A DNA stretch of 42,903 nucleotides from an uncultured Desulfobulbaceae bacterium (GTDB lineage: Bacteria > Desulfobacterota > Desulfobulbia > Desulfobulbales > CALZHT01): positions 1 through 42,903 of the forward strand of contig CALZHT010000030.1 in assembly GCA_945787445.1 (NCBI GenBank), given 5' to 3'. A model generated the notes under the pieces. That model was not told the DNA's origin. It made no database searches and was given only the letters and a program-made list of their open reading frames with translations. The position numbers were made by a program, and so were the translations under genes. The first letter of the stretch is position 1, and each line of letters begins with the position of its first letter. This document shows, in pieces, positions 11,161 through 28,613 of the stretch.

Positions 11161-13560
11161 TCAACTTACTGGCAATTCAACAGTAACAGTAGTGTGATCC
11201 CCAAATTGACTACCGATTTCTATATGCCCTCCGTGGTCCATAAGAATATTCCGGCTGATGGTCAAACCCATTCCCGTACCCTCGCCAGGAGGTTTAGTGG
11301 TAAAACCTGGGTTAAAAACTTGGGCCAAATCTTGTGAATTAATTCCTTCACCCCAGTCAGTTATCGATATTCGTATCCAGTTTCTGTCCTGTTTGGTAAT
11401 CATATCCCCCTTGATTTCCAAACGTTTATTCTCATTTTTCATCGGGTATCTATTATTCAAAGCCCGCCGGGCATTGTGCAGGATATTCAGAAAAATCTGC
11501 TGCAACTGCTGGATATGAATTGATATTGCAGGCAGATCGTCCGGATAAAAGGTGTTCACCTTAATGCCATCGTTCTTGAGATGATGTTTTATCAACATAA
11601 GCGAATCGGTTATAATATCACTCAATTTAACGAGCGCTTTACCATCCCCTTGTTCTCTACTATAAAATAGAAGCTTTTGCGCGATTTCAGCAATCCGCTC
11701 TCCTTCCTTTATAACATTGTCTAAGATGTTGAGCTGGCCATTGTCCAAAACAGTTTCACCGGTTTCATCGGACAAAAGCTGAGCATAATTAATAATGCCG
11801 TTGCTCAAATTATTAATCTCATGAGCCACGCCTGTTGCCAGTTCTCCTAAAGACTCAAGCCGAGAGGACCGAATCGTTTCTAACTTTCTGGTTTTCTCTG
11901 TGTTGAGCCTGCTTGTCATATCGAGCATAACTTTTTTATGGTCTGTATTATCCTGCGCGATGCAAAGAACATCATCTTCCTCTGCATACTTATTCAGACA
12001 TTTCACAAAACGGCACTTTAATATTCGTTTCTCACCTCCTTTGCTGATGATATTCATTTCATAACATTTGTTAGTAATTAACCCCGGCAAATTATAGGTG
12101 CCATTCTCATTTATTGGTACTATTTTTTCATCATCCGGTTGAAAAAAATCCAACCAGGATTTAGTCAGCATATCATCTGAACTGCAGGCAAAAACCTTTT
12201 CCGCCTCGTTATTCATGGAGATAATCGAACCATCTGATGATATTGCCACCAACACGGCATCAACCGCATCCACAATCTGCCTATTCGCCCCCTCTTGAAG
12301 GGTGAGATCCTCTTTTATTTCAAGGGTATTTAAGGCCAAGGCCAACTCACCCGACACCATGCTCAACAGATCTACTTCCTCCTCATCAAAGGTGTTTTGG
12401 GAAGAGCCGTAAACAGTTAACACTCCATAAATATTTCCCCGCACAGAAATGGGCAATACCACGCAACTGAGAGATAAGCCTTCAAATGGAGTATTGCTAA
12501 ATAATCCCTTTGGAATGCCTTCTAGAATATCACGCTTAATAATGGGGTTGCCAGTTTGATAGGCTTTGACCTCGGGGTTGTTTTCTGAACCTTTTCCTTC
12601 CAGGGCTTTTCGTAAAACCTTTAAAGACTCCTCGCTCCCGCTCTTGTTAGTAAAAAAAGGCGATTCTTGTACAGCAGGAACAAGATTCTGGTTCTCGTCC
12701 GGAACAGATATGGTAACCACGCAGTAAAGATCATTGACAAATAATGATCGACAAACTTCCTTAAACAGTTCTTGTCTGTTCTGGGCATGGGCAATGCTGT
12801 AAATTATCCTTTGCACCGCTTGAATTGTTTTGTGTTTCTTTATTAACCCTTCAGAAGTTTCCTTTCGCATTATGAGCAAATTATTAAATGAATTAGCCAA
12901 CTGATTAATCTCATAAGATTTTTTACTCAATTGAAACGATAGATTTTCACGTTTCCCCTCCCCGACCTCTTTTACCTGCTGATCAAGGATAAGCAGCGGC
13001 CCCGCAATTCTCCTATGAAAAAGGAATAAAATGTTAACAATGATAAATATTACAATGGCCAAAGCGCCAATAACTACACTCTGGAAACTTATCAGCTGCC
13101 GTTTAGCATGATTGACAATAACCCTGTCAAAAAGCATAAGGCGGTCGCCTAGAATCCGCACTTCTCGGTTTAACTCCCGTAGCTTTGCCATATCTAGGGA
13201 AGATCCGTCCAATTTCCTTAAAAGCAAGACAATGCCGGGTAGATCAACTTGATTGATAAATGTAAGTTTGTATTCATCAGGTATATTCTTGTTAGACAGG
13301 ATAAAAGATAAATCGGCATGGAGGTCCTCAATCTCTTCGGTAACGTTCGAAAAGGCAGAATATTCGCCTTCCACTAACAATTCGTTAATGTGTTCACGAA
13401 TTATTGCGAACTGGAAAATGAGTTTTTCGCTTTGTTCTGTGACTTTGCCGAAATTCTTGAGATGTTGATATTGTCTAAAGCCGAGAGTAAGAACCCCGAG
13501 TAATATGATGAATATGCATATCCCTACGAAATAAATGGTTCGTCTCAGTGGAAAATTCAT
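11161..13560 (-). CDS. Membrane sensor histidine kinase (HAMP-GAF-PAS-HisKA-HATPase)
   Basis: The 799-residue sensor has TM1 (about 8-28), a helical periplasmic domain of about 130 residues, TM2 (160-181) and HAMP (182-235). A GAF domain (about 245-415) and a PAS domain (about 425-545) follow. The kinase core has phospho-acceptor His580 in LATGVAHEINNLSNG, an N box with NILHNARRAL, and the G boxes DWGEGI and GEGTGMGLTI. This NtrB/ZraS-like core usually pairs with sigma-54 response regulators, and one with matching context lies at 26820-28613. A sigma-54-type promoter at 13669-13684 and shared palindromes further upstream imply autoregulation. The signal is unknown; the large periplasmic part suggests an envelope or redox cue. 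Confidence 0.93.
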   Translation of the reverse strand: MNFPLRRTIYFVGICIFIILLGVLTLGFRQYQHLKNFGKVTEQSEKLIFQFAIIREHINELLVEGEYSAFSNVTEEIEDLHADLSFILSNKNIPDEYKLTFINQVDLPGIVLLLRKLDGSSLDMAKLRELNREVRILGDRLMLFDRVIVNHAKRQLISFQSVVIGALAIVIFIIVNILFLFHRRIAGPLLILDQQVKEVGEGKRENLSFQLSKKSYEINQLANSFNNLLIMRKETSEGLIKKHKTIQAVQRIIYSIAHAQNRQELFKEVCRSLFVNDLYCVVTISVPDENQNLVPAVQESPFFTNKSGSEESLKVLRKALEGKGSENNPEVKAYQTGNPIIKRDILEGIPKGLFSNTPFEGLSLSCVVLPISVRGNIYGVLTVYGSSQNTFDEEEVDLLSMVSGELALALNTLEIKEDLTLQEGANRQIVDAVDAVLVAISSDGSIISMNNEAEKVFACSSDDMLTKSWLDFFQPDDEKIVPINENGTYNLPGLITNKCYEMNIISKGGEKRILKCRFVKCLNKYAEEDDVLCIAQDNTDHKKVMLDMTSRLNTEKTRKLETIRSSRLESLGELATGVAHEINNLSNGIINYAQLLSDETGETVLDNGQLNILDNVIKEGERIAEIAQKLLFYSREQGDGKALVKLSDIITDSLMLIKHHLKNDGIKVNTFYPDDLPAISIHIQQLQQIFLNILHNARRALNNRYPMKNENKRLEIKGDMITKQDRNWIRISITDWGEGINSQDLAQVFNPGFTTKPPGEGTGMGLTISRNILMDHGGHIEIGSQFGDHTTVTVELPVS

Positions 13561-14625: not shown

Positions 14626-14920
14626 CCCATTTTCTACCCAGGAATATGCTACACCTTGGGGGTTGACCTAATCTTCTATGAACAAAAATGTATCTGCACC
14701 TGATCATGTATAAGTTGCACAGCAATGAATGACTATTCACTCATGCTTATTGTTTGTTATATCAAACAATTAAAATGCACATGGAAAGGATAAGATAAAA
14801 TTTATTACATTCATAATAACATACTATCTGGAGGAATCTTGAACGCAGTTGGCTTGCATTCAAATTTAATCATATTTATAGGCTAACTATTATCAAACCT
14901 TTTACGGGAGGATGTGCCCC

Positions 14921-16030
14921 ATGAAGAAAAAAAAATATACAAGCTTGGTCTTGGGAATTTTTTCTCTGCTGATTGCTCCGCTCATCTTCCCCTCCCTATG
15001 CCCCGCCGTCGAAAATGAAGAGTGCATGGAGTGCCACGCTGACGACACTCTAGCCCGCACAAAATCCGAAGGCATGAAGGAAAACCTCTTCGTTAACCAG
15101 GAGAATTTCGAAAACTCCGTACACCATGCCAACGACATTACCTGTGTTGATTGTCACTCGGACATTGAGAAACTAGACTGGGATAACGAAATACCGCACA
15201 GTGAAAGACTTGCCGCTGTTTTTTGCGATAAGTGCCACGAAGAAGAAGCTGAAGCATATGTCGACTCCGTACACAAAAAAGCCGGCGGCAAAGGCATTAC
15301 CATCCCATGCTATGCATGTCACGGCTACCATTATGTGACCCACCTGGAAGCCGAATCAGTCCTTGAAAGGGAAAACGGCTTCTGCCTGAAATGCCACAAT
15401 CCAAACAAATTTCATGAGTGGCTTCCGCAAATGGAAACCCATTTCGCCTATGTTGAATGCACGGTTTGCCATGCCCCTGAGGTTCCACGATATATCAATT
15501 TACGGTTCTTTGATCTTGCTAAGCAGAAATTTCTGGACGGCAATGAATTATTGACAGCGATGGGTACTGATTATGATGGATTCATGCCGCTTGTCGACAC
15601 TGACAGTAGCGGCATCATTGATATAAAGGAATTTGAAAATTTTACCTATATGCTGTTAGCTAAAGACCTCAGGGGAACCTTCCACGCAGAGTTAGTGGTT
15701 GCCATTGAACCTGTTGTTCACCATGTGAACAGAGGTGCAGCTAATCGTGAATGCGAAATGTGTCATATACCAACCTCTCTATTCTTTGAAAACGTGCGCT
15801 TCGCATTGAATAAGGAAGATGGCACAACGGAACACCACCAGGTTGATCGAAAAGTGCTGGAAACGTATTACCTTAAACATTTTTATGCATTAGGCGGGAC
15901 AAGGATCCGGTTGCTCGACCAAATTGGCCTGGCAATGATTGCTGCGGGTGCGGGAGTTGTACTTGCTCATTTATTCATGAGAATACTTACCATACCAACA
16001 CGTAAAAAGAAAATGGACCACAAAATATAA
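14921..16030 (+). CDS. Membrane-anchored heptaheme c-type cytochrome with an EF-hand loop
   Basis: The 369-residue protein has a signal peptide (about 1-29), seven CxxCH haem sites (Cys35, 75, 102, 130, 155, 180, 278) and a C-terminal transmembrane helix (about 333-357) followed by a basic tail. Between haems 6 and 7, residues 226-237 (DTDSSGIIDIKE) form a canonical EF-hand calcium loop. It is expected to carry electrons in the periplasm while tethered to the inner membrane. The next gene is a cytochrome b, so together they probably link the quinone pool to periplasmic acceptors. ATG14912 lies one base after GGGAGG and is too close; ATG14921 has proper spacing and gives the better signal peptide. 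The partner enzyme is not known. Confidence 0.88.
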   Translation: MKKKKYTSLVLGIFSLLIAPLIFPSLCPAVENEECMECHADDTLARTKSEGMKENLFVNQENFENSVHHANDITCVDCHSDIEKLDWDNEIPHSERLAAVFCDKCHEEEAEAYVDSVHKKAGGKGITIPCYACHGYHYVTHLEAESVLERENGFCLKCHNPNKFHEWLPQMETHFAYVECTVCHAPEVPRYINLRFFDLAKQKFLDGNELLTAMGTDYDGFMPLVDTDSSGIIDIKEFENFTYMLLAKDLRGTFHAELVVAIEPVVHHVNRGAANRECEMCHIPTSLFFENVRFALNKEDGTTEHHQVDRKVLETYYLKHFYALGGTRIRLLDQIGLAMIAAGAGVVLAHLFMRILTIPTRKKKMDHKI

Positions 16031-16049
16031 ACTCAATGGAGGTAGAAAG

Positions 16050-16670
16050 ATGGATAATAAGAAACTTATTTATATTCATCCCCTTCCAGTAAGAATCTGG
16101 CACTGGATCAATGCTGTTGGCATGGTTATGCTGGTCGTGACCGGTTTACAAATCCGATTTGCGGACATCGTAAGCCTTTTTACCCTTGAAGAGGCTATAA
16201 CTCTCCATAATTATATTGGTTTTGTCGTAATAGGCAACTATGGCCTTTGGGTGGCATTTTATTTTGGCACCGGAAAAATTAAGATTTATTTTCCTACCCC
16301 AAAAACCTTTTTGCCAAACACCATTAAACAGATGAAATACTATGGGGTCGATATCTTTAAAGGGGACCCTAATCCACATCATATGACCCCGGATAACAAA
16401 TTCAATTCTTTACAACAGCAGGCTTACGTTGGCTTGATGTTTATCTTCATGCCTCTGCAGATGATTACCGGTCTTTTACTTTGGCGGGTTAATGATTTTG
16501 AAAAATATATCAACATGCTTGGTGGAATCAAGATCGTAGATACAATTCATGTCCTGCTCTTCTTCTTTTTCTCAATCTTCATAGTAGTGCATTCTTATCT
16601 AGCGACTCTCGGTCATACACCATTGGCACATTTCAAAGCAATGTTCACAGGATTTGAAGAATCTCATTGA
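16050..16670 (+). CDS. Di-haem cytochrome b561-type membrane subunit
   Basis: The 206-residue integral membrane protein has about four transmembrane helices. Histidines are placed as in thiosulfate reductase, formate dehydrogenase gamma or hydrogenase b-type subunits: PVRIWHWINA in helix 1, LHNYIGF in helix 2, and DTIHVLLFFFF plus IVVHSYLATLGH in the last helices. It should exchange electrons between menaquinone and the heptaheme cytochrome encoded 19 bases upstream. A GGAGG site precedes ATG16050. A strong terminator follows directly, so the operon appears to have just these two genes; the catalytic subunit, if any, is encoded elsewhere. Confidence 0.88.
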   Translation: MDNKKLIYIHPLPVRIWHWINAVGMVMLVVTGLQIRFADIVSLFTLEEAITLHNYIGFVVIGNYGLWVAFYFGTGKIKIYFPTPKTFLPNTIKQMKYYGVDIFKGDPNPHHMTPDNKFNSLQQQAYVGLMFIFMPLQMITGLLLWRVNDFEKYINMLGGIKIVDTIHVLLFFFFSIFIVVHSYLATLGHTPLAHFKAMFTGFEESH

Positions 16671-16676
16671 ATATAC

Positions 16677-16730
16677 TGGCTCGTCAATAATGTTCACAGT
16701 TTTTAATTATTATTGACGGGCCATTTTTTT
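16677..16730 (+). terminator. Rho-independent terminator of the heptaheme/cytochrome b operon
   Basis: TGGC-t-CGTCAATAAT (16677-16691) pairs with ATTATTGACG-g-GCCA (16709-16723), with one mismatch, followed by seven Ts. It begins 6 bases after the cytochrome b stop. Confidence 0.9.
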
Positions 16731-16849
16731 GTCTAATTACACAAAAAAATTTGCTTTTTTATGTTTTTTTATTGATAACATAGAGACACTATTACCTTGG
16801 AATGGATTAACTTCAATGTCTAACGTTCCACTACTATAAGGAGTCCGCT

Positions 16850-17608
16850 ATGATCTATTGGGCATTATTTCTAGTTCCAATAATTCTGATGTTTTTCATC
16901 GCAATTATTAAGGTGGTCACCCAATACGAACGAGGTGTTCTTTTCAGGCTAGGAAAAGTTGTAAAAATCAAGGAAGAGGGTGTTGCAATAGTATTTCCGC
17001 TTATTGATAAAATAGAAAAAATTGATACCAGGACTATAACCCATGACATACCGGCCCAAGACATTATCACTAAAGACAATGTGTCTGTGCGGGTGAGTGC
17101 CGTCGTCTATTTCCGGGTTGTTGATCCCGTCAAGGCGCTCACCGAGGTCGAAGATTATAAGGTTGCCACCTCCCAGCTTGCCCAGACAACCCTCCGAAGC
17201 ATCTGTGGACAGGATGATCTTGACCATATCCTGTCGGAACGTGATGCAGTAAATCATAAGATGCAGGAAATACTGGATCATGAGACAGAACCTTGGGGAG
17301 TAAAGGTCAGTAAAGTTGAAATTAAAGACATTGACCTGCCTGACTCCATGCAGAGGGCCATGGCAAAACAGGCTGAAGCCGAACGAGAGCGACGTGCATC
17401 AATTATCAACGCGGAAGGAGAGCTACAGGCAGCTGAAAAATTATGTGAAGCGGCAGCGCTAATAGATCAACATCCTGCCGCTATTCAAATCAGGTATTTG
17501 CAGACTATTCGTGAGATCGGTGTCTCTGAAAACAATACAACCCTCATTCCGGTGCCTGTTAATTTATTCAATGAATTGCTCAAAATTCAGCCACCAAAAA
17601 TAACGTAA
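16850..17608 (+). CDS. Slipin / stomatin-like SPFH-domain membrane protein
   Basis: The 252-residue protein has one N-terminal membrane segment (about 3-22) followed by an SPFH/Band 7 domain: YERGVLFRLGKVV, VFPLIDKIEKIDTRT, TKDNVSVRVSAVVYFRVVDPVKA. A helical C-terminal part follows with AMAKQAEAERERRASIINAEGE, the typical stomatin/slipin coiled-coil, and PVPVNL near the end. Such proteins form ring-shaped membrane microdomain scaffolds and often modulate membrane proteases such as FtsH, whose gene lies 6 kb away in this window. ATG16850 has an AAGGAG site. It is separated from the cytochrome operon by a terminator, so it has its own promoter, which was not recognised. No NfeD-type partner gene is adjacent. 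Confidence 0.92.
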   Translation: MIYWALFLVPIILMFFIAIIKVVTQYERGVLFRLGKVVKIKEEGVAIVFPLIDKIEKIDTRTITHDIPAQDIITKDNVSVRVSAVVYFRVVDPVKALTEVEDYKVATSQLAQTTLRSICGQDDLDHILSERDAVNHKMQEILDHETEPWGVKVSKVEIKDIDLPDSMQRAMAKQAEAERERRASIINAEGELQAAEKLCEAAALIDQHPAAIQIRYLQTIREIGVSENNTTLIPVPVNLFNELLKIQPPKIT

Positions 17609-18376: not shown

Positions 18377-18408
18377 AAAAAACCCTCTCGGGTGAGAGGG
18401 TTTTTTTT
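18377..18408. terminator. Bidirectional rho-independent terminator
   Basis: CCCTCTC (18383-18389) pairs with GAGAGGG (18394-18400) across a GGGT loop, with an A-run before and eight Ts after. It lies about 190 bases beyond the octaheme-cytochrome stop on the minus strand and probably ends that operon. Confidence 0.85.
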
Positions 18409-18595: not shown

Positions 18596-20029
18596 TTATT
18601 GGAATTCATGCTTGCTTCTGGACAATCCTGGAATCTGCCAGGGATCACCCTTATAGCCAAGCTCCTTCCAGTTCATCCTGCTGTTGCTGCCATGACACTC
18701 AAGACAATCAAGAGCTTTCTTCGCAGAAACAACACCATGATTAATCCGCCAGTACATCATGGTTTCAGTGAAATCATATTCACCACTGTAAGGCAATCCG
18801 GTAAATGCCATTCCCTTACGGGCGGCCAAATCCCAATCATAGGTTTTCCAGAAGGCTGTCTCACCTTTTCCGGTAATATACGGGGAAATGAGATAGTCAT
18901 ATTTTTTGTCATAAATCTGCTTTGCGGTGTGAACCCGGAAAGGAAATATTTTGGAATGCTTGTCCTTTATGCTTCCCTCTGGATTATTGAGAAATGTTAT
19001 ACCGTTGGGATCAAGCTTATCACCTCTTGTATAGGCGCTTTCTTTTCCGTTATACCACTCATACACCGGAAGGACGTTCTTGTTCCAGGTAAAAGCCCCT
19101 AAGCCTTTTACCGGTTGGGTAGTGCCGTATTTCTCTGGAGACCATTCAATAACAAAACACTGGGTTGTACACCAATCCCAATGTGTCTTTGTAGCATATT
19201 GCCTTGCATAGGTAGGAATATGACAGGTCTGGCAAGATACCGCTTCATAATGAGTATTGAGAATCTTCATCTTGTGAGGAGTGTCAGTGTGGCACTCAAT
19301 ACAGCCGGATTGGTAAGTACCCTTGGGAGACGGCACCATGTAATGGCCCATAATATTATGCCTTTCCTGAGGATAATGGCATTTCTGGCAGTCAAAATCC
19401 TGGCCGTCGGCTGCCATGTGGATATCAATGTCCATGGATGGACCGGCAAATGACGAATCAAGATCGCCGTGTTTCACCTTAGCAGCACCACAGCCGCCAA
19501 AATGGCAGGTTCCACAGGTCTTTTTTGTTGGTTTACCAACATTTTGTGCGACATGCAGCAAATCGACCGGGGCACCGCGCTCCTTGGATTCTGCATAAAA
19601 TCCTTTCGGCATGCCGGCGCCCATTTTGGCTTTTTTATAGGTGCCTGTAGTGTCGTGGCAGACGAGACAATCAACCTTTGATTTATCCTGAAAATCAAAG
19701 CTCGCATCCTGCCAACCAAATCCGATATGACAACTTGTACAGCGCGGCCAGTTGCCGTCTACGGCAATGGCAAAATTAGTCATTGCCACCTTCTTGCCGT
19801 ACATCTGCTCCTTGCCGTTGATTATCTGCATCTGTTCCCAATTCCAATGCTGGGTCTTCATGATGTCCACCGCAGCATCATTGTGGCATTCAATACATTT
19901 ATCTGAAACCTCAGAGGGACTTTCAAATGGTCCCTTGATTTCCTCATGAACTTTTGCTGCCATTGCACTGCTCGAGGCAAAAAAGACAGCTAGGATCGTC
20001 AAAAATGATATCATCCTAAATTTTTGCAT
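18596..20029 (-). CDS. Octaheme c-type cytochrome, tetrathionate reductase (OTR) family
   Basis: The 477-residue periplasmic protein has a Sec signal (1-25, ending AMAA) and eight CxxCH sites (Cys45, 97, 121, 172, 214, 243, 266, 442). The long haem-free stretch between haems 7 and 8 is typical of the OTR family, as are THWDWCTTQCF, KHSKIFPFRVH and the conserved DYDF-like YSGEYDFTETMMYWRINHG. Shewanella OTR reduces tetrathionate, nitrite and hydroxylamine in vitro, but the physiological substrate of the family is uncertain. Here it is the last gene of an operon with NrfD, Fe-S and pentaheme subunits, so it is probably the periplasmic catalytic end of a quinone-linked complex. Confidence 0.92.
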   Translation of the reverse strand: MQKFRMISFLTILAVFFASSSAMAAKVHEEIKGPFESPSEVSDKCIECHNDAAVDIMKTQHWNWEQMQIINGKEQMYGKKVAMTNFAIAVDGNWPRCTSCHIGFGWQDASFDFQDKSKVDCLVCHDTTGTYKKAKMGAGMPKGFYAESKERGAPVDLLHVAQNVGKPTKKTCGTCHFGGCGAAKVKHGDLDSSFAGPSMDIDIHMAADGQDFDCQKCHYPQERHNIMGHYMVPSPKGTYQSGCIECHTDTPHKMKILNTHYEAVSCQTCHIPTYARQYATKTHWDWCTTQCFVIEWSPEKYGTTQPVKGLGAFTWNKNVLPVYEWYNGKESAYTRGDKLDPNGITFLNNPEGSIKDKHSKIFPFRVHTAKQIYDKKYDYLISPYITGKGETAFWKTYDWDLAARKGMAFTGLPYSGEYDFTETMMYWRINHGVVSAKKALDCLECHGSNSRMNWKELGYKGDPWQIPGLSRSKHEFQ

Positions 20030-20078
20030 AATGTATACCCTTCTCCCAATAATTTTTTTAACGGACCAGATCCTCGCG

Positions 20079-21338
20079 TTATTTATCTCCCTTCCAGGTA
20101 TATAAAATCGGAAGCCGATACAGGATGAATCGATACGTCACGATATAGGTGGCATAAACTGTGAATACGATAACCAATTCACGCCAGTGTGGAATTTCCT
20201 GATAGAGCTGCCAGTTAAACGTGATTAATGCGGTGTTTAAACGGTTTAAGGCAATTCCCATTACCGCAATAAAGGCACTGAAACGGGCAAGAGAAGCATT
20301 CTGATTGCGAACGGCCATTGTGTAAAGCACCAGGGGCACAATGGTGCCGGCAACAATTTCAAATGTGAACCAGAGTCCCCAGTCCGTGAAAAGATACTTC
20401 CAGTCATTGTCATGAGCAACAGCCAAGATTTTAATTATGAAGTATGTGATCAGGGCAAGGGCACACCCCTTTGCCAGGCCTAAGGTTTGCCGGTCAAGAT
20501 TATCCAGGAAGTTCCTATCACAACGCCAAGACATGAACTTTTTGCAAAGTGTGGAGACCACAATAAGCATGCTCAGGCCTGCAAATATCGAGGAACAGAA
20601 AAAATGGAACCATTGAAATGGCGACGAGTACCACAAAGGATGCACCTTGCCGGGAGCATAGGTAAAAAGTGCTCCAAGGGCTCCCTGGTGGAGGGTTGAA
20701 AGAATGATACCCGCAATGGTGAGACCTAGAACCATACTCTTGATATACTTTTTCGCAGACGGCCAGTTGAGCCATTCAGCAAGCGCAGGGACGAGTTCGG
20801 CGACCTGCACGGAAAGATATGTGGCAACATGCCAGGCAACCAGAAATAGAACAGCGGCAGGGCCCAAGGAGACAAACATCGGATAGATGAGGCGCCAAGG
20901 CTGCCCAAGGTCAACCTGCAAAAATATAACTGCAAAGAAATAGCCCAACAATCCGTTTAAAAGGGCCAATCTCTCGATCGGCTTGAAATCCTTGCGTCCG
21001 AATACTTCCACAGTTGTTCCTAGCATGAAACCTGAGGCAGACAATGGAACCATGACAAAAAGACCCCAGCCCAGGAAAAGACCCCAGGGATAATCATAGG
21101 AAGAGTGGGTTACCCAACCGAGACCGAATAGAAACCTGCCAACTGTTACAGGTATTCCAACAGAATAAATTGCAATGAGAATCCAGTTAAAGGGATTCCT
21201 GAAAAATTGAGTAAAATATTGTTTTGGCGTTAACCCAAGCCAGAGCTTTTCTTTCACCAGCCACTGGGTTTGCGTTTCATCCTTATAATATGAAGCAATG
21301 GGAACATGCCCATCTGCAATTAATCTTTTCATGGCCAT
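20079..21338 (-). CDS. NrfD/PsrC-family quinone-interacting membrane subunit
   Basis: The 419-residue integral membrane protein has about nine to ten helices and matches the NrfD/HybB superfamily: FNWILIAIYSVG, LSASGFMLGTTVEVFGRKDFKPIERLALLNG, VLFLVAWHVATY, LSTLHQGALGALF and the late ALNRLNTALITFNW. It has no haem sites. It should oxidise or reduce menaquinol and pass electrons to the Fe-S subunit encoded 11 bases upstream. Glu/Asp residues of the quinone-site helix bundle are present (TVEVFGRKDF). A short basic C-terminus (LYTWKGDK) ends the protein. It is the third gene of the pentaheme-FeS-NrfD-octaheme operon. Confidence 0.93.
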   Translation of the reverse strand: MAMKRLIADGHVPIASYYKDETQTQWLVKEKLWLGLTPKQYFTQFFRNPFNWILIAIYSVGIPVTVGRFLFGLGWVTHSSYDYPWGLFLGWGLFVMVPLSASGFMLGTTVEVFGRKDFKPIERLALLNGLLGYFFAVIFLQVDLGQPWRLIYPMFVSLGPAAVLFLVAWHVATYLSVQVAELVPALAEWLNWPSAKKYIKSMVLGLTIAGIILSTLHQGALGALFTYAPGKVHPLWYSSPFQWFHFFCSSIFAGLSMLIVVSTLCKKFMSWRCDRNFLDNLDRQTLGLAKGCALALITYFIIKILAVAHDNDWKYLFTDWGLWFTFEIVAGTIVPLVLYTMAVRNQNASLARFSAFIAVMGIALNRLNTALITFNWQLYQEIPHWRELVIVFTVYATYIVTYRFILYRLPILYTWKGDK

Positions 21339-21349
21339 ATCAACTCCTA

Positions 21350-22270
21350 TTATTTTTGGGATTCGCTTTCTTTATTTTTGTTTTCTTTTCTCGTTGCCAG
21401 CAGATGGAAACCGGCAAACAAAGCAGGCCAGATCGTCAGAACCATGGGCACTATGGTCAAGAATTCCTTGACATAGTTCAGTATCGGTTGATTACCGAGG
21501 TGGGTGTCAAAACCAACCTCTTCAAATGGAACTCCTGATAAATACAACCACGATGTTCCACCGACCTCTTTTTCCCCATAGATATGATTTACATATTTTC
21601 CAGGATTGAGTTTTATCCGCTGGCGGGCATAGTAGATAAGGTCCTCCCTTTTCCCGAACGTAAGGGTTTCTCGTGGGCATGCTTCAGCGCAGGCGGGGCG
21701 GCGTCCGAATTTGAGTCTTGTGTCGTAGCACATGATGCATTTTTTCACCACCGGGTTAAGCACACTGGAATAACTGTAGGCCGGGACATAAAAGGGACAG
21801 GCAATCATACATGTTCTGCATCCGACGCAGACCTTAGGATCATACATTACCGCGCCTTCAGGTGTCTTGGTGTAAGCGTTCACAAAACATGAACTGAGAC
21901 ACGCCGGCTCGTTGCAATGATTACACTGTATTTTTCGATAAACCGGTTTGTCCTGGCCTTCAACATCGTAACGGTTTACAATAGTATACGCTTTTTCCGT
22001 AGGGCGGCGTTTTTGACCAAGGTGAATTTCATCGAACACGGAAAAATCGTCAAACGGCTTATCAGGCGCCGGTAATTTTTGTTCTTTGTTGCAAGCAGCC
22101 TCACAACTCCTACACCCTATACATCTGGTCAAATCAACCAGAACCCCCATTCTATCCGGATAGCCCTCAAAGGTCCCTGCAGCCTCGGCCTTCTTCCCTA
22201 AACCAAGTGCACCGATGACACCTCCTGCAAGCCCCCCTTTCAGCAATGATCTTCGGTTCATTTTCTTCAT
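21350..22270 (-). CDS. Tat-exported four-cluster ferredoxin-like subunit with C-terminal membrane anchor
   Basis: The 306-residue protein begins with a twin-arginine signal (NRRSLLKGG, then AGGVIGALGLGKKAEA). Four groups of four cysteines (50/53/56/60, 116/119/124/128, 148/151/154/158, 178/181/194/198) should bind four [4Fe-4S] clusters as in PsrB, NrfC, HybA and DsrO. A hydrophobic segment at about 270-291 followed by a charged tail suggests a HybA-like C-terminal anchor. It bridges the NrfD quinone subunit and periplasmic cytochromes. ATG22270 has an AAGAGG site with good spacing. A downstream in-frame ATG (22261) would shorten the basic n-region. Confidence 0.93.
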   Translation of the reverse strand: MKKMNRRSLLKGGLAGGVIGALGLGKKAEAAGTFEGYPDRMGVLVDLTRCIGCRSCEAACNKEQKLPAPDKPFDDFSVFDEIHLGQKRRPTEKAYTIVNRYDVEGQDKPVYRKIQCNHCNEPACLSSCFVNAYTKTPEGAVMYDPKVCVGCRTCMIACPFYVPAYSYSSVLNPVVKKCIMCYDTRLKFGRRPACAEACPRETLTFGKREDLIYYARQRIKLNPGKYVNHIYGEKEVGGTSWLYLSGVPFEEVGFDTHLGNQPILNYVKEFLTIVPMVLTIWPALFAGFHLLATRKENKNKESESQK

Positions 22271-22330
22271 TCAAATACCTCTTCAATTAAAGGATTAAAC
22301 CATTCCTTTTTAGTTTCTCTTCGAATTTGA

Positions 22331-22879
22331 TTAATGATGCCCACCTGCATTATCGCTCGGCTTGGGGGCATATTGACCTGAGTAGAAAAACTTGTCGCCC
22401 TTCTCAGTTCTTGGGTGACAACCATCGCAGGTGTATGGGCCATCTACTTCTTCATGGCAGGAAATACAAAATTGATGATAGGCCCCTTTTAAACTTGGTT
22501 TATCCTTGTGATATACTTCCCCGCGTTCTTTGCGAATCTTTTTCCCCTCCTCTGAATATGGATCGGAAAGGTGGCATCCACGGCATGCAACAATCTTGGT
22601 TGAAGCTTCATATTTATGGCAAAGATTGCAGTTTCCTGTTCCTGTGCTAGGTGTACCGATTGTATGGTGATGACACTTTGCACAATCGTTTTCTGCAAAT
22701 TCGATGTGACTTGCATGATCAAAATTTACCGGCTCGTAATACTCAGCAATACTGTCTAAAATGATTGTTGCAGGCCCTGCTGCTATTTCTTCTTCTTGGG
22801 CAAAACAATTCCCTGCAAAGAAAAATGCCGCAATGGGCACTAAAACCATCAGCATCAAAATTTTCTTTATTTTCAACAT
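22331..22879 (-). CDS. Pentaheme class III-type c cytochrome
   Basis: The 182-residue periplasmic protein has a clear signal peptide (1-27) and five CxxCH sites (Cys66, 84, 99, 138, 151). The arrangement HASHIEF-x-CAKCHHH is typical of cytochrome c3/c7-like domains, in which extra histidines supply the sixth ligands. Five sites is one more than classical tetrahaem c3. As the first main gene of the operon, it probably passes electrons between the Fe-S/NrfD module and the octaheme protein or soluble carriers. The tail (PSDNAGGHH) carries two terminal histidines. The gene is preceded by a long leader containing a 22-codon ORF and a sigma-54 promoter. Confidence 0.9.
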   Translation of the reverse strand: MLKIKKILMLMVLVPIAAFFFAGNCFAQEEEIAAGPATIILDSIAEYYEPVNFDHASHIEFAENDCAKCHHHTIGTPSTGTGNCNLCHKYEASTKIVACRGCHLSDPYSEEGKKIRKERGEVYHKDKPSLKGAYHQFCISCHEEVDGPYTCDGCHPRTEKGDKFFYSGQYAPKPSDNAGGHH

Positions 22880-23134: not shown

Positions 23135-23150
23135 TGCATTTTCCATACCA
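23135..23150 (-). promoter_or_regulatory. Sigma-54 promoter of the pentaheme-FeS-NrfD-octaheme operon
   Basis: Read on the minus strand: TGGTATGGAAAATGCA. The -24 GG and -12 GC are correctly spaced and TGCA is retained; C to T at the fourth position is the main deviation. The predicted start (about 23124) is about 245 bases before the pentaheme ATG and 86 bases before the small ORF. A palindrome cluster lies 375-445 bases upstream. Confidence 0.72.
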
Positions 23151-23522
23151 AAATTCATAATCAATTTCTTATCTGCACAGCTTTTTCAAAATAGCTTGGT
23201 GCGTGTCCTGATCTGATCATGAAGTACAATGGAATTGCCAGGCAACTGCCAGACAATTACCCGACTCTATCGTCTGATCTAAAGCAAAAAGGCAGCGGAT
23301 GATGGGGGCAGCAGGTATGAAAAAGGAATATAATTTCGCAATCTGAAAAAAATGCCCAAGAGCAAATCAGAAGAAAAGGTAAAAAAATCACAGTGGACAG
23401 GAAGCAGATAGTATAGAGGGAAATTGCCTTCCCTAATTTGGGAGGCAGAAAAAGAAAAAATTTACTGTAGTTAAGTTGAAATTAATCTTTGCCAAATTAT
23501 TTACCCTGAAAATTAAACCACA

Positions 23523-23596
23523 ATAAGTGTTGCATGCAACACTTATGTTGCAACACTTATGTTGCATACAACACTTATTGCCCGATTGTTGCACTA
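23523..23596. promoter_or_regulatory. GTGTTGC/GCAACAC enhancer array, cluster B
   Basis: A perfect 24-base palindrome (23523-23546, core GTGTTGCATGCAACAC at 23527-23542) is followed without gap by TGTTGCAACA (23546-23555), by TGTTGCATACAACA (23560-23573), each flanked by CTTAT, and by a TTGTTGCAC half-site near 23587. It is the strongest copy of the motif in the window. It lies upstream of the pentaheme operon and just past the ftsH stop. Confidence 0.75.
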
Positions 23597-23678: not shown

Positions 23679-25499
23679 TTAAGCCTGCTGAGTGTTCATA
23701 TCCGTCTCTGTTGTCTCCAACTTGGAACAGCCGACCAACTGTTCAACTTCCTCGGCTCCGATTGTTTCTTTTTCCAACAGTAGTTCAGCCAATTGGTGTA
23801 GTATATCGATTTTGCCTTCAAGGATAATCATTGCTTCCTGGTAGCAGTCTTCTATGAGTGCATTTATCTCCCGGTCTATAGCGCGAGCAGTATCTTCACT
23901 GTAAATCCTTTGGGTCGAACTTCCTCCCAAGAATCCTTCATCAGGCTTCACATAAGCTCTGGGTCCCAGTTGTTCCGTCATACCCCACTCGCACACCATT
24001 TTCGAAGCTATTTCCGTTGCAGTCTGCAGGTCATTGCTTGCCCCGGTCGTATACTGATTAAAGACGATTTCTTCAGCAGTTCTGCCGCCAAGAAGTATCT
24101 TAATGCGGTTGGTCAGAAATTCCTTTGAATATGCATGGCGGTCATCAAGAGGCATCTGTTGCGTAACTCCCATGGCTCTTCCCCGGGGGATAATAGTTAT
24201 TTTATGAACAGGATCAGTATTAGGAAGAAGACATGCAAGGACAGCGTGGCCTGCTTCGTGAAAGGCTGTTGTTTTCTTTTCCTTGTCGCTGATCACCATA
24301 CCTTTGCGTTCTGCACCCATCAAGATCTTGTCCTTGGCCTCTTCAATATCAATCAATTCGATGGACTCTTTGCCTTTTCTGGCAGCCATCAAGGCCGACT
24401 CATTCATTAAGTTAGCCAATTCTGCACCGGTAAATCCGGGAGAACTCCTGGCAACTTCATTAAGCACCACATCAGGTGACAGGACAACTATTTTTGCATA
24501 CACTTGCAGTATTTCCTCACGCCCCTTGACATCAGGGGGTAATATCGTAACCTGTCGATCAAAACGGCCTGGCCGCAGCAGCGCCTTGTCTAAAACGTCC
24601 GGTCTGTTTGTGGCAGCAACAATAATGACATTATCACCCGATTCAAATCCATCCATCTCAACCAGGAGAGCATTGAGGGTTTGTTCCCTTTCATCCTGCC
24701 CTCCCTGTGATCCGGCACCCGCCCCACGATGACGCCCAACCGCATCAATCTCATCAATAAACACAATACATGGCGCATTTTTTTTAGCCTGGCTGAAAAG
24801 GTCCCGCACTCTTGATGCACCCACGCCAACGAACATTTCCACAAAATCGGAGCCGCTGATACTGAAAAACGGCACACCTGCCTCACCGGCTATAGCCTTT
24901 GCCAACAATGTTTTACCGGTCCCTGGCGGGCCCTGTAATAAAACGCCTTTAGGAATGCGCCCGCCGAGACGGGTATATTTTTTGGGATCCCTTAAAAACT
25001 CTATGACTTCAATGAGTTCTTCTTTTGCCTCCGGAACACCTGCCACATCATGGAAAGTTACCTTTTGCGCCCTTTCGGCTGATATCAAGGCCTTGCTTCT
25101 AGTAAATCCTGAGGATCCTCCACCCCGTTGTTGTCTGACCATGAAAAACATCCAGGCGCCGACAATAAGCAAGGCGGGAAATACTGAAGTCCAAAATGTT
25201 GAAGTTGAAGATGGTCGATCCGAACTCGCTGAAATAATTACGTCTTTTTCTTGCAGTTTTGGTATTAAATTCACCACATCAGGCGCAAAGGACATAAATG
25301 GATTGCCATACGCATCCTCGCCTCTGATTTCCCCACCACGCAAATGGACTTTGCGGATCTCATCATTTGTTAGACTTGTCAGAAAAGCGGTGTAATCAAT
25401 AAATGGCGGTTTATTCTCAATATTCCATACATTATACAATATGACTGCAACAATAGTGATCAGCACGACAATCAAATAATTTCGAACATACTTGGCCAC
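23679..25499 (-). CDS. ftsH: ATP-dependent zinc metalloprotease FtsH
   Basis: The 606-residue membrane protease degrades misfolded or regulatory membrane proteins. Domains in order are TM1 (about 8-25), a periplasmic domain (26-100), TM2 (about 105-121) and an AAA+ domain with Walker A GPPGTGKT (190-197). The pore motif [13 protein letters not shown], Walker [15 protein letters not shown] and the [23 protein letters not shown] follow. The zinc site is HEAGHAVLA, with the third ligand Asp in [10 protein letters not shown]. Length is normal. The start is a GTG (25499) with a GAGG site. The gene stands alone between the regulator block and the respiratory operon; a second genomic copy is possible, as its position is not next to tilS or hpt. 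Confidence 0.96.
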
Positions 25500-25819: not shown

Positions 25820-26134
25820 TTATTCACTGATAGTAGCTTTTGTCCGGCTAACATATTTGTAGAACAAAGGAAAGGTGCTCAGAAATCCTACTGCCAAAAT
25901 ATACTCAATGCCCTTAATGTGGGTATAGAAATCAACCAGGGTTTCAAATTCTCTGATTACACCAACTGCCACGAGATATTGTCTGAACATCTCTGAAACC
26001 TGCCAGTCAGCCCTGCCAAGACCAACCATCAGAGCAACAACCGCCCACAATCCAATGGCTGCGCCAATACCCATCATAGCAGTAAGTACCCAAGGAATCT
26101 GTTTCTTTTTTTCCATAACCAATTCTTTTTCCAT
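25820..26134 (-). CDS. Small membrane protein (paralogue of the preceding gene)
   Basis: The 104-residue protein has two predicted membrane segments: about 15-38 (VLTAMMGIGAAIGLWAVVALMVG) and about 76-92 (YILAVGFLSTFPLFYKY). The stretch AIGLWAVVALMVG...EMFRQYLVAVGVI aligns with LIGVWGVACLIGG...DLVRGYFTAVMGM of the neighbouring 76-residue protein, so the two are paralogues; this one has an added C-terminal helix. No known family was recognised. ATG26134 has an AAGGAG site. It is in an operon behind a sigma-54 promoter, which places it in the same putative regulon as the cytochromes. It may be a small subunit of, or stress factor for, a membrane complex. Confidence 0.8.
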   Translation of the reverse strand: MEKELVMEKKKQIPWVLTAMMGIGAAIGLWAVVALMVGLGRADWQVSEMFRQYLVAVGVIREFETLVDFYTHIKGIEYILAVGFLSTFPLFYKYVSRTKATISE

Positions 26135-26740: not shown

Positions 26741-26820
26741 GTGTTGCATGGTGTAGCGAGCAACACTTTATGCAACACTTTTGGCGGCAAAACTGTTGCA
26801 TCGATGACGATGCAACAGTT
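26741..26820. promoter_or_regulatory. GTGTTGC/GCAACAC enhancer array, cluster C
   Basis: GTGTTGC (26741-26747), GCAACAC (26760-26766) and GCAACAC (26772-26778) are followed by a perfect 13-bp inverted repeat, AACTGTTGCATCG (26791-26803) and CGATGCAACAGTT (26808-26820), which touches the regulator stop codon. Read on the minus strand the latter is a hairpin followed by four Ts, so it may double as the terminator of the regulator gene. Confidence 0.7.
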
Positions 26821-28613
26821 TATGCAACGGTGGGTTCAATATTATGGAGACGGAGTTTCCGATAGAGGGTGCTTCTGTCAATTCCTAAGAGCCTGGCCGC
26901 TTTAGCCTTGTTGCCATCCACCATTTTCAAGGTGCGGATAATACGGTCATGCTCATTCGCCTCAACCGAATCATTGAGAACAGGCTCAAGCCCCCCGGAG
27001 GGACCTGGGGCGGCTGTTTTTTGGGCGGCATCACGAGACGTATAGTTCATGATGATCTCATCTGAGATATGTTCTGTGGCTATGGTTGTGCCATTGCAGA
27101 GAATTGCGGCACGTTCCATAATATGTTCAAGCTCCCGGACATTTCCGGGCCAATCATAGTTATTCAATATTTGCAGAGCCTGATCTGAAATCCCGGTAAT
27201 GTCTTTATCAAGTCGTTTACTGAAACGCTCAAGGAAAAATTGTACTAATAACTCCAGATCTTCATCCCGGTCACGCAGAGGTGGAAGATGAATATCAACC
27301 ACCCGTAGTCTGAAATAGAGGTCCTCACGGAACTGACCATCATTAACTTTCTGCCTGAGATCTGCATTTGTGGCAGCGATTACCCGAACATCAACTTTTA
27401 TGTGGCTATCCTGTCCAACAGGATAAAATGTTCTTTCCTGGAGGAATCGGAGCAACCTCAGCTGCATGATAGGTGAGATGTCGCCGATCTCATCAAGAAA
27501 AAGGGTGCCGCCATCCGCATGCAGAATCCTGCCTTTCCGGTCTCGGTCTGCTCCGGTGAACGATCCTCTCTTATGGCCGAAAAGCTCGCTTTCGAGCAAT
27601 GTTTCAGGTATTGCCGTACAATCAACCTTTACCAGCGGCATATCCCTTCTTGGACTCTCCCCATGCAAGGCCTCAGCAACAAGTTCTTTACCGGTTCCAC
27701 TCTCACCTGTGATGAGAACGCTGGTGTCAACATGCCCCACATTCTCAATCATTGTGTACACCGCCTGCATCACCCGGCTACTCCCGACAAGGCGGTGAAA
27801 ATGATTTTTCTTGCCCATCTTCTCAAGAGCTTCCAGCTGACTCACATCACGCGCCAAGAACACAACACCAAGAACATTACCGTTTTTTGTTTCCAATGGA
27901 GCAGCACTGATACGGAAAATAGACATCTCACCGGCCAGCATACATTCCACCCGGTGCTCGCTGACTTCATTCTTTGTGCGGAGAACCTCTTCCGCATCTT
28001 CAATAAAAAATTGCCCAAGCTGACTTGGTAATTCATTTAATGAATCCCCCACAGCAAGATCTGATTTCAACAGCCTCAAAACGTTTTTGGCCCTATTGTT
28101 CATATCCACTATCTGCATTTGAGGATCGACAGTAATTATAAGGTCTCGAACGCTTCTAAAAACTGTCTCGAGATGCCGCCGATACCCTTCCTTCTCTTCC
28201 CGAAGTTTTTCCTTTTCCTTCCACAGATTATACTGCTGCAGCGCCAGCCTCGCCACTCGAAGCAAATTGTCTTTCTTTACTGGTTTTGGCAAATAATCAA
28301 AGGCGCCAAGCCTAACCGCTTCAGCTGCCGAGTTGATATTTGGATAGCCCGTGACCATGACAACAGGGCAATGGAGCCCTCTATCCTTAATATGACGGAG
28401 CAAATCGATTCCCGAGGCGCCTTCAAGCACTATATCACTGATGACAAGGTCGAACGTTTGCTTGTTGAGAATATCAATCGCCTCTTCATAAGTAGCAACA
28501 ATCTGAACCGGTCCATAACCTTCACGGGCCAGGAACGTCTTAAAAGTCAGCCTGAGACTTTCTTCATCGTCGATTACCAAAATACGGCTTTCCGTCTGGT
28601 TAATGTCATTCAT
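26820..28613 (-). CDS. NtrC-type sigma-54 response regulator with a PAS domain
   Basis: The 597-residue regulator has a receiver domain (1-125; acidic pocket Asp15/Asp16, phospho-acceptor Asp60 in DLVISDIVLEG, Lys110) and a linker helix. A PAS domain (about 145-260) is followed by the AAA+ domain (about 275-505; Walker A GESGTGKE 303-310, sigma-54 loop GSFTGA 350-355, Walker B LFLDEIGD 371-378). A Fis-type helix-turn-helix (KAKAARLLGIDRSTLYRKL) lies near the C-terminus. The GSFTGA loop has Ser for the usual Ala. PAS between receiver and AAA+ is uncommon and may bind a second signal. It probably pairs with the kinase at 11161-13560 and binds the GTGTTGC palindromes, one cluster of which abuts its stop. 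Confidence 0.94.
   Translation of the reverse strand: MNDINQTESRILVIDDEESLRLTFKTFLAREGYGPVQIVATYEEAIDILNKQTFDLVISDIVLEGASGIDLLRHIKDRGLHCPVVMVTGYPNINSAAEAVRLGAFDYLPKPVKKDNLLRVARLALQQYNLWKEKEKLREEKEGYRRHLETVFRSVRDLIITVDPQMQIVDMNNRAKNVLRLLKSDLAVGDSLNELPSQLGQFFIEDAEEVLRTKNEVSEHRVECMLAGEMSIFRISAAPLETKNGNVLGVVFLARDVSQLEALEKMGKKNHFHRLVGSSRVMQAVYTMIENVGHVDTSVLITGESGTGKELVAEALHGESPRRDMPLVKVDCTAIPETLLESELFGHKRGSFTGADRDRKGRILHADGGTLFLDEIGDISPIMQLRLLRFLQERTFYPVGQDSHIKVDVRVIAATNADLRQKVNDGQFREDLYFRLRVVDIHLPPLRDRDEDLELLVQFFLERFSKRLDKDITGISDQALQILNNYDWPGNVRELEHIMERAAILCNGTTIATEHISDEIIMNYTSRDAAQKTAAPGPSGGLEPVLNDSVEANEHDRIIRTLKMVDGNKAKAARLLGIDRSTLYRKLRLHNIEPTVA

Follow-up and report, generated by a model that had tools for sequence, protein, structure and literature searches.

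An OTR-family octahaem cytochrome with a remodelled pocket in an Hmc-like NrfD operon of an uncultured Desulfobulbaceae bacterium

The operon, its products and its neighbours

The locus lies in a window of 42,903 nucleotides (the whole stretch of DNA analysed, contig CALZHT010000030.1), where four genes on the minus strand, separated by 60, 11 and 49 nt, form a tight operon. The first (22331–22879) encodes a c3-type cytochrome with five CxxCH motifs and a Sec signal peptide, a minimal HmcA-like module. It is followed by the gene for an HmcB/HybA-like Fe-S protein (21350–22270), Tat-exported and bearing four 4Fe-4S clusters and a C-terminal membrane anchor, by that for a putatively quinone-linked, NrfD-family membrane subunit of the HmcC/HybB-like kind (20079–21338), and by that for an OTR-family octahaem cytochrome (18596–20029). 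Downstream of the OTR gene, a bidirectional, terminator-like stem-loop with T runs (18383–18400) closes the operon; it is the strongest site of its kind, the ones inside the operon being weak. The preliminary description of this DNA had listed the same four products, and the open reading frames, motifs and model matches confirm them.

The pentahaem is a class III cytochrome with a single c3 module (PF02085), akin to the C-terminal HmcA domain (PDB 1GWS/1H29). It also matches the nine-haem cytochrome in PDB, although with its five CxxCH motifs it scores 27 bits against the nine-haem cytochrome model NF045784, for which the cut-off is 640. The Fe-S protein has a Tat-like signal, 16 cluster cysteines and a hydrophobic C-terminal anchor; it reaches 406 bits against the HmcB model NF045715 (just below the cut-off of 420) and 210 bits against the HybA model, and matches PF13247 and other domains. 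The NrfD protein scores 357 bits against the HmcC model NF045714, below the cut-off of 550, and 55.6 bits against PF03916, over the cut-off. The octahaem carries eight CxxCH motifs, scores 525 bits against TIGR04315 (cut-off 375) and aligns over its full length with the Shewanella OTR 1SP3 (E=2e-139). No 16-haem HmcA was found over the cut-off in the genome, the operon having the pentahaem only, and among the open reading frames of the window none stood out as HmcE or HmcF. All haem motifs of the operon are CxxCH, with none of the CxxCK type found in NrfA.

Several known systems resemble this arrangement in part. The Hmc complex of Desulfovibrio (HmcABCDEF) shares with it the HmcB-like Fe-S protein, the HmcC-like NrfD, perhaps an HmcD-like small protein, and the kinship of the pentahaem to the HmcA C-terminal domain; unlike Hmc, the window has no 16-haem HmcA, its proteins fall below the curated HmcB, HmcC and HmcD cut-offs, an OTR is added and the regulators are others. 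NhcABCD likewise combines a multihaem c3-type cytochrome, matched in PDB by the pentahaem, with Fe-S and NrfD proteins, whereas here there are five haems and a separate OTR octahaem. In E. coli NrfABCD, a pentahaem, a four-cluster Fe-S protein and NrfD also have a multihaem partner, but the fourth subunit here is of the OTR family and without CxxCK, and the Fe-S and NrfD subunits are of the Hmc type. Ohc of Desulfovibrio vulgaris (OhcBAC) couples an octahaem cytochrome to an Fe-S protein under sigma-54 control (PMC4641369). We considered whether the window operon is an Ohc and ruled this out, since the Ohc membrane subunit, OhcC, is a haem b protein (PMC4641369) and Ohc has neither NrfD nor a pentahaem, while the window has an NrfD/HmcC-type subunit.

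Upstream of the operon on the same strand lie genes for an FtsH protease (23679–25499), a conserved neighbour by synteny, for a small HmcD-like membrane protein (25820–26134; 24 bits against NF045712, cut-off 34), which has homologues in most relative loci, and for an orthologous sigma-54-dependent response regulator of receiver-PAS-AAA-Fis HTH architecture (26820–28613), also conserved at the locus. On the other side, there is a minus-strand sensor histidine kinase gene (GAF-PAS-HisKA-HATPase; 11161–13560), whose product is homologous to the kinase encoded immediately after NrfD in relatives. Between it and the OTR gene, a convergent plus-strand set (14912–17608) encodes a 7-haem cytochrome, a b561-type cytochrome and an SPFH/stomatin-like protein, and is present at the related loci L073 and L074 too. 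Within 14912–16670, the 7-haem cytochrome contains an EF-hand-like stretch, DTDSSGIIDIKEF, and a C-terminal anchor, and its pairing with the b561 cytochrome that follows is syntenic at both loci.

Distribution of the NrfD module and of the octahaem gene

With 535 bits as the minimum score, and counted by hand from the listing, NrfD of the window type occurs in 129 of 253 genomes of the order. At 20 relative loci inspected, the order is nearly always FtsH, pentahaem, Fe-S protein, NrfD and histidine kinase, often with the sigma-54 response regulator upstream, and an OTR gene was found at none of the 20. Among the 30 closest NrfD loci, the gene directly downstream is a kinase in 26 and an OTR in three (the window, G001 and G002), one locus ending with its contig; across the order, the locus has also kept the small HmcD-like gene. 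At loci L191–L210, FtsH, pentahaem, HmcB-like and HmcC-like genes are followed by one for a histidine kinase and accompanied by one for a sigma-54 response regulator; quinone module and two-component system are encoded together there. What emerges is a putative Hmc-like complex that spans the order and is linked with a kinase/sigma-54 pair.

The window retains the regulator, the HmcD-like gene, FtsH and the kinase, with the OTR gene and the convergent set separating NrfD from the kinase. Because the module mostly lacks an OTR, which here sits between NrfD and the kinase, the octahaem gene is an addition to it: by its gene contexts it is a lineage-specific insertion, and the locus represents a recruited cytochrome joined to an order-wide Hmc-like module and not an ancient four-gene system. 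Operon structure was compared across relatives, as the preliminary description had proposed. The four-gene order recurs at L073, L074 and L075, and in part at L071, but most copies of the NrfD module have no OTR.

Octahaem proteins of the window type are found in five of 258 genomes of the order, namely the window's own, G001 (RIFOXYD12_FULL_50_9), G002, G005 and G420 (MB4D_Bin_23, with two tandem copies), giving six proteins in all. In a tree of 110 OTRs these six fall into a single clade (support 1.0), placed among the Shewanella-like OTRs, and each of their genes lies directly downstream of a window-type NrfD gene or of the first OTR copy. The preliminary description had held that octahaem genes in relatives without the NrfD module would refute such a complex; such genes are the rule for the OTR family at large, most of whose members lack NrfD, whereas the window's clade is found only beside the module. 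In the tandem case (L071:1273-4259), both copies follow NrfD and both have remodelled pockets, the first, with Arg153, grouping with the G005 protein and the second with that of the window.

The pocket of the octahaem protein

In metagenomes, tetrathionate or nitrite reduction is routinely deduced from OTR genes. In 1SP3, whose numbering is used throughout, Cys64 and Asp150 presumably line the active-site pocket, and we take Lys153 to be the lysine ligand of the active-site haem. For OTR, lysine ligation of the active-site haem from outside its haem motif has been described (PMC12285233). At the pocket positions the window protein has Thr61, Ala64, Cys147, Ala150 and Lys153.

To place these residues, we surveyed 77 other OTRs, with 14 distant homologues excluded and selenocysteine counted as cysteine, and obtained 82 alignment columns that are at least 95% conserved. 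Only eight of them are mostly changed in the window's clade. Four of the changes fall at positions that are 100% conserved in the 77 proteins: Asn61 is replaced by Thr, Cys64 by Ala or Gly and Gly147 by Cys, while Lys153 is Lys, Gln or Arg, being kept in the window protein and substituted in three of the six clade members. Further changes affect Lys275 (Leu, Ile or Val) and, in part, Ser253, Ala255 and Lys330. Position 150 is Ala in the clade and Asp, Asn or Glu in nearly all other OTRs. All eight CxxCH motifs and the other conserved histidines are retained. An AlphaFold model of the window OTR was of low quality (mean pLDDT 42). In sum, the protein agrees with the OTR of Shewanella oneidensis in sequence family, haem motifs and full-length alignment and differs from it by the replacement of Cys64, Asn61, Gly147 and Asp150, and also in setting, as it lies within an NrfD operon instead of standing alone or next to a cytochrome b.

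In many other Desulfobacterota OTRs the column of Cys64 holds an in-frame TGA, read as selenocysteine, and Sec-containing TIGR04315 proteins have already been listed as GenBank-annotated selenoproteins (PMC13188914). The TGA falls exactly at this column at L042, L046, L047, L058, L060 and L069, as well as at L108, L120, L121, L128, L130 and others. With Cys or Sec at position 64 nearly everywhere else, the view that its loss in the window's clade matters is strengthened. Separately, an OTR at L020 (G031, about 1501–2724), which is not beside NrfD and belongs to the 14 excluded distant homologues, has Ala at position 64 and a deleted active-site loop; here the pocket was lost independently.

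Since residues present without exception in the 77 other OTRs are gone from this clade, the classical activities on tetrathionate, nitrite and hydroxylamine are unlikely for the window protein, and we infer that they were lost. The preliminary description had tentatively pointed to the reduction or disproportionation of sulfur oxyanions as the electron route; for the octahaem protein, the replacement of Cys64, Asn61 and Gly147, together with a Lys153 that is not kept throughout the clade, speaks against such a role. A quinol-linked, NrfABCD-like reductase of sulfur oxyanions (tetrathionate) or of nitrite and hydroxylamine, in which the octahaem subunit did the catalysis, would fit the family membership, a composition that parallels NrfB-NrfC-NrfD-NrfA, the Lys153 of the window protein and the catalytic residues kept in 12 of 13 OTRs of a separate, NrfD-linked fusion lineage (see below); set against the four replaced residues, Asp150 among them, and the loss of Lys153 from sister proteins, we regard it as very improbable.

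The main rival to our own reading is a different enzyme, in which the pocket has been rebuilt around Cys147, with a Cys-ligated or open haem whose substrate might be a different small molecule, possibly some sulfur species. All six proteins of the clade have Cys147, which the 77 other OTRs lack; it lies in the same loop as Lys153, six residues before it; the haem scaffold is intact, and the source genome carries dsrA. A new conserved site would, however, predict less variation than is seen, Asp150, Asn61 and Cys64 being gone and Lys153 being Gln or Arg in half of the clade, and we hold this explanation to be unlikely, if worth serious weight. Some chemistry may nevertheless persist, given that Lys153 is kept here and that the new invariant cysteine shares its loop. 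What the pocket does suggest for annotation is that a high-scoring OTR can be without the catalytic residues and may belong to an electron-transfer complex.

Partnership, electron route and regulation

Fusion genes found elsewhere in the phylum bear on whether the octahaem is a physical partner of the NrfD module. Thirteen genomes there combine an HmcB/HybA-like Fe-S gene and NrfD with an OTR of 12–13 haems. In four OTRs tested with a profile of the pentahaem family, the extra N-terminal haems are a c3 module (E values of about 1e-14 to 1e-17); the same profile matches most of the remaining ones. In five of the 13 genomes, NrfD, c3 and OTR are a single polypeptide of 1068–1105 residues; these genes (L116, L129, L211, L212 and L213) adjoin the HmcB/HybA-like Fe-S gene. 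The 12–13-haem OTRs form a clade of their own (0.999), far from that of the window, and the NrfD that goes with them resembles, by score, other NrfD types of the source genome more than the one in the window. Separate OTR clades together with a different NrfD type indicate that OTRs were captured by NrfD modules at least twice. As the NrfD of the fusion lineage comes from another subfamily, and 12 of its 13 OTRs have retained Cys64 (all 13 Lys153), this lineage supports physical contact and not the same function. An AlphaFold model of the fusion (mean pLDDT 32) was too poor for contacts. With two independent captures, one of them fused, the modular evolution of respiratory complexes becomes directly testable.

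The pentahaem provides a second line of evidence. In the OTR-bearing operons it is monophyletic (support 100) on a stem of about 0.75–0.79 substitutions per site and has 39% identity to other pentahaems, whereas the Fe-S protein and NrfD stay at about 70% throughout. Divergence of the pentahaem in OTR-bearing operons only is as expected if it contacts the octahaem; alternatively, joint transfer of pentahaem and octahaem would explain it. Separate histories of the Fe-S–NrfD and pentahaem/OTR pairs through gene exchange were also considered and not claimed, the tree support values being too weak.

A partnership is therefore supported by the independent NrfD-c3-OTR fusions and by a pentahaem divergence seen only with OTR, and from gene order and gene fusion we infer a four-subunit physical complex. 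The specific, membrane-linked complex envisaged in the preliminary description is upheld to this extent, with the conserved gene order as a further indication. By contrast, an octahaem that is merely co-transcribed and works as a free periplasmic carrier apart from the NrfD complex would sit well with the absence of OTR from the module in most relatives and of NrfD from beside most OTRs, but the fusions and the confinement of pentahaem divergence to OTR-bearing operons make it improbable. In the freely available papers searched, no account of an OTR-NrfD complex turned up.

We consider it somewhat likely, then, that the operon encodes an Hmc/Nhc-like complex for electron transfer between menaquinone and periplasm, extended by a retired or retooled OTR. 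Electrons would pass between NrfD and the menaquinone pool and be relayed by the anchored four-cluster Fe-S protein, and the pentahaem c3 module would carry them to or from the periplasm. The octahaem, recruited as a further subunit, would dock on the pentahaem and serve as an electron conduit, or as a docking or relay extension to other periplasmic or outer cytochromes; flow along menaquinone, Fe-S protein, pentahaem and octahaem could run in either direction. A conduit or relay is the most likely role of the octahaem, and a reductase is not, because the pocket has been rewritten while the eight haems are kept. A broader formulation, which we put forward only tentatively, has an octahaem reductase captured by a quinone complex of Hmc type and made non-classical, its Cys64/Lys153 site replaced by one based on Cys147, so that it is now either purely a relay or the bearer of a Cys-ligated haem capable of new chemistry; a separate lineage would have made its own capture by fusing NrfD, c3 and a catalytic OTR into one chain.

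The histidine kinase and sigma-54 regulator encoded nearby probably turn on expression of the complex. In the window alone, a plain search for the sigma-54 consensus performed at chance level (27 sites against 26 expected). By a rough scoring matrix, about half of 22 loci in relatives have a good TGGCAY...TGCW site some 60–180 bp before the pentahaem gene. The candidate promoter of the window, TGGTATGGAAAATGCA (23135–23150, minus strand), lies upstream of the pentahaem gene and aligns with TGGTATGAAATGTGCA, which precedes the operon at L074; the genes for the HmcD-like protein, the 7-haem cytochrome and the kinase have sites of this kind in front of them as well. Unlike the single-window scan, this conservation, together with the regulator at the locus, supports the sigma-54 control that had been predicted from the window.

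The close association of kinase and module could also mean that the NrfD complex is chiefly a redox-signalling device informing the kinase and the sigma-54 regulator, with the octahaem shifting its set point. The kinase directly after NrfD at 26 of the 30 closest loci and the conserved regulator would agree with this; it is common, however, for kinases and regulators just to be encoded alongside the operon under their control, and in the window the kinase is detached from the operon, and we find such a role hardly probable. Finally, between FtsH and the operon (23521–23580) lies a 60-base array of inverted and direct repeats of ATAAGTGTTGCA/TGCAACACTTAT, possibly a regulator-binding site or a terminator.
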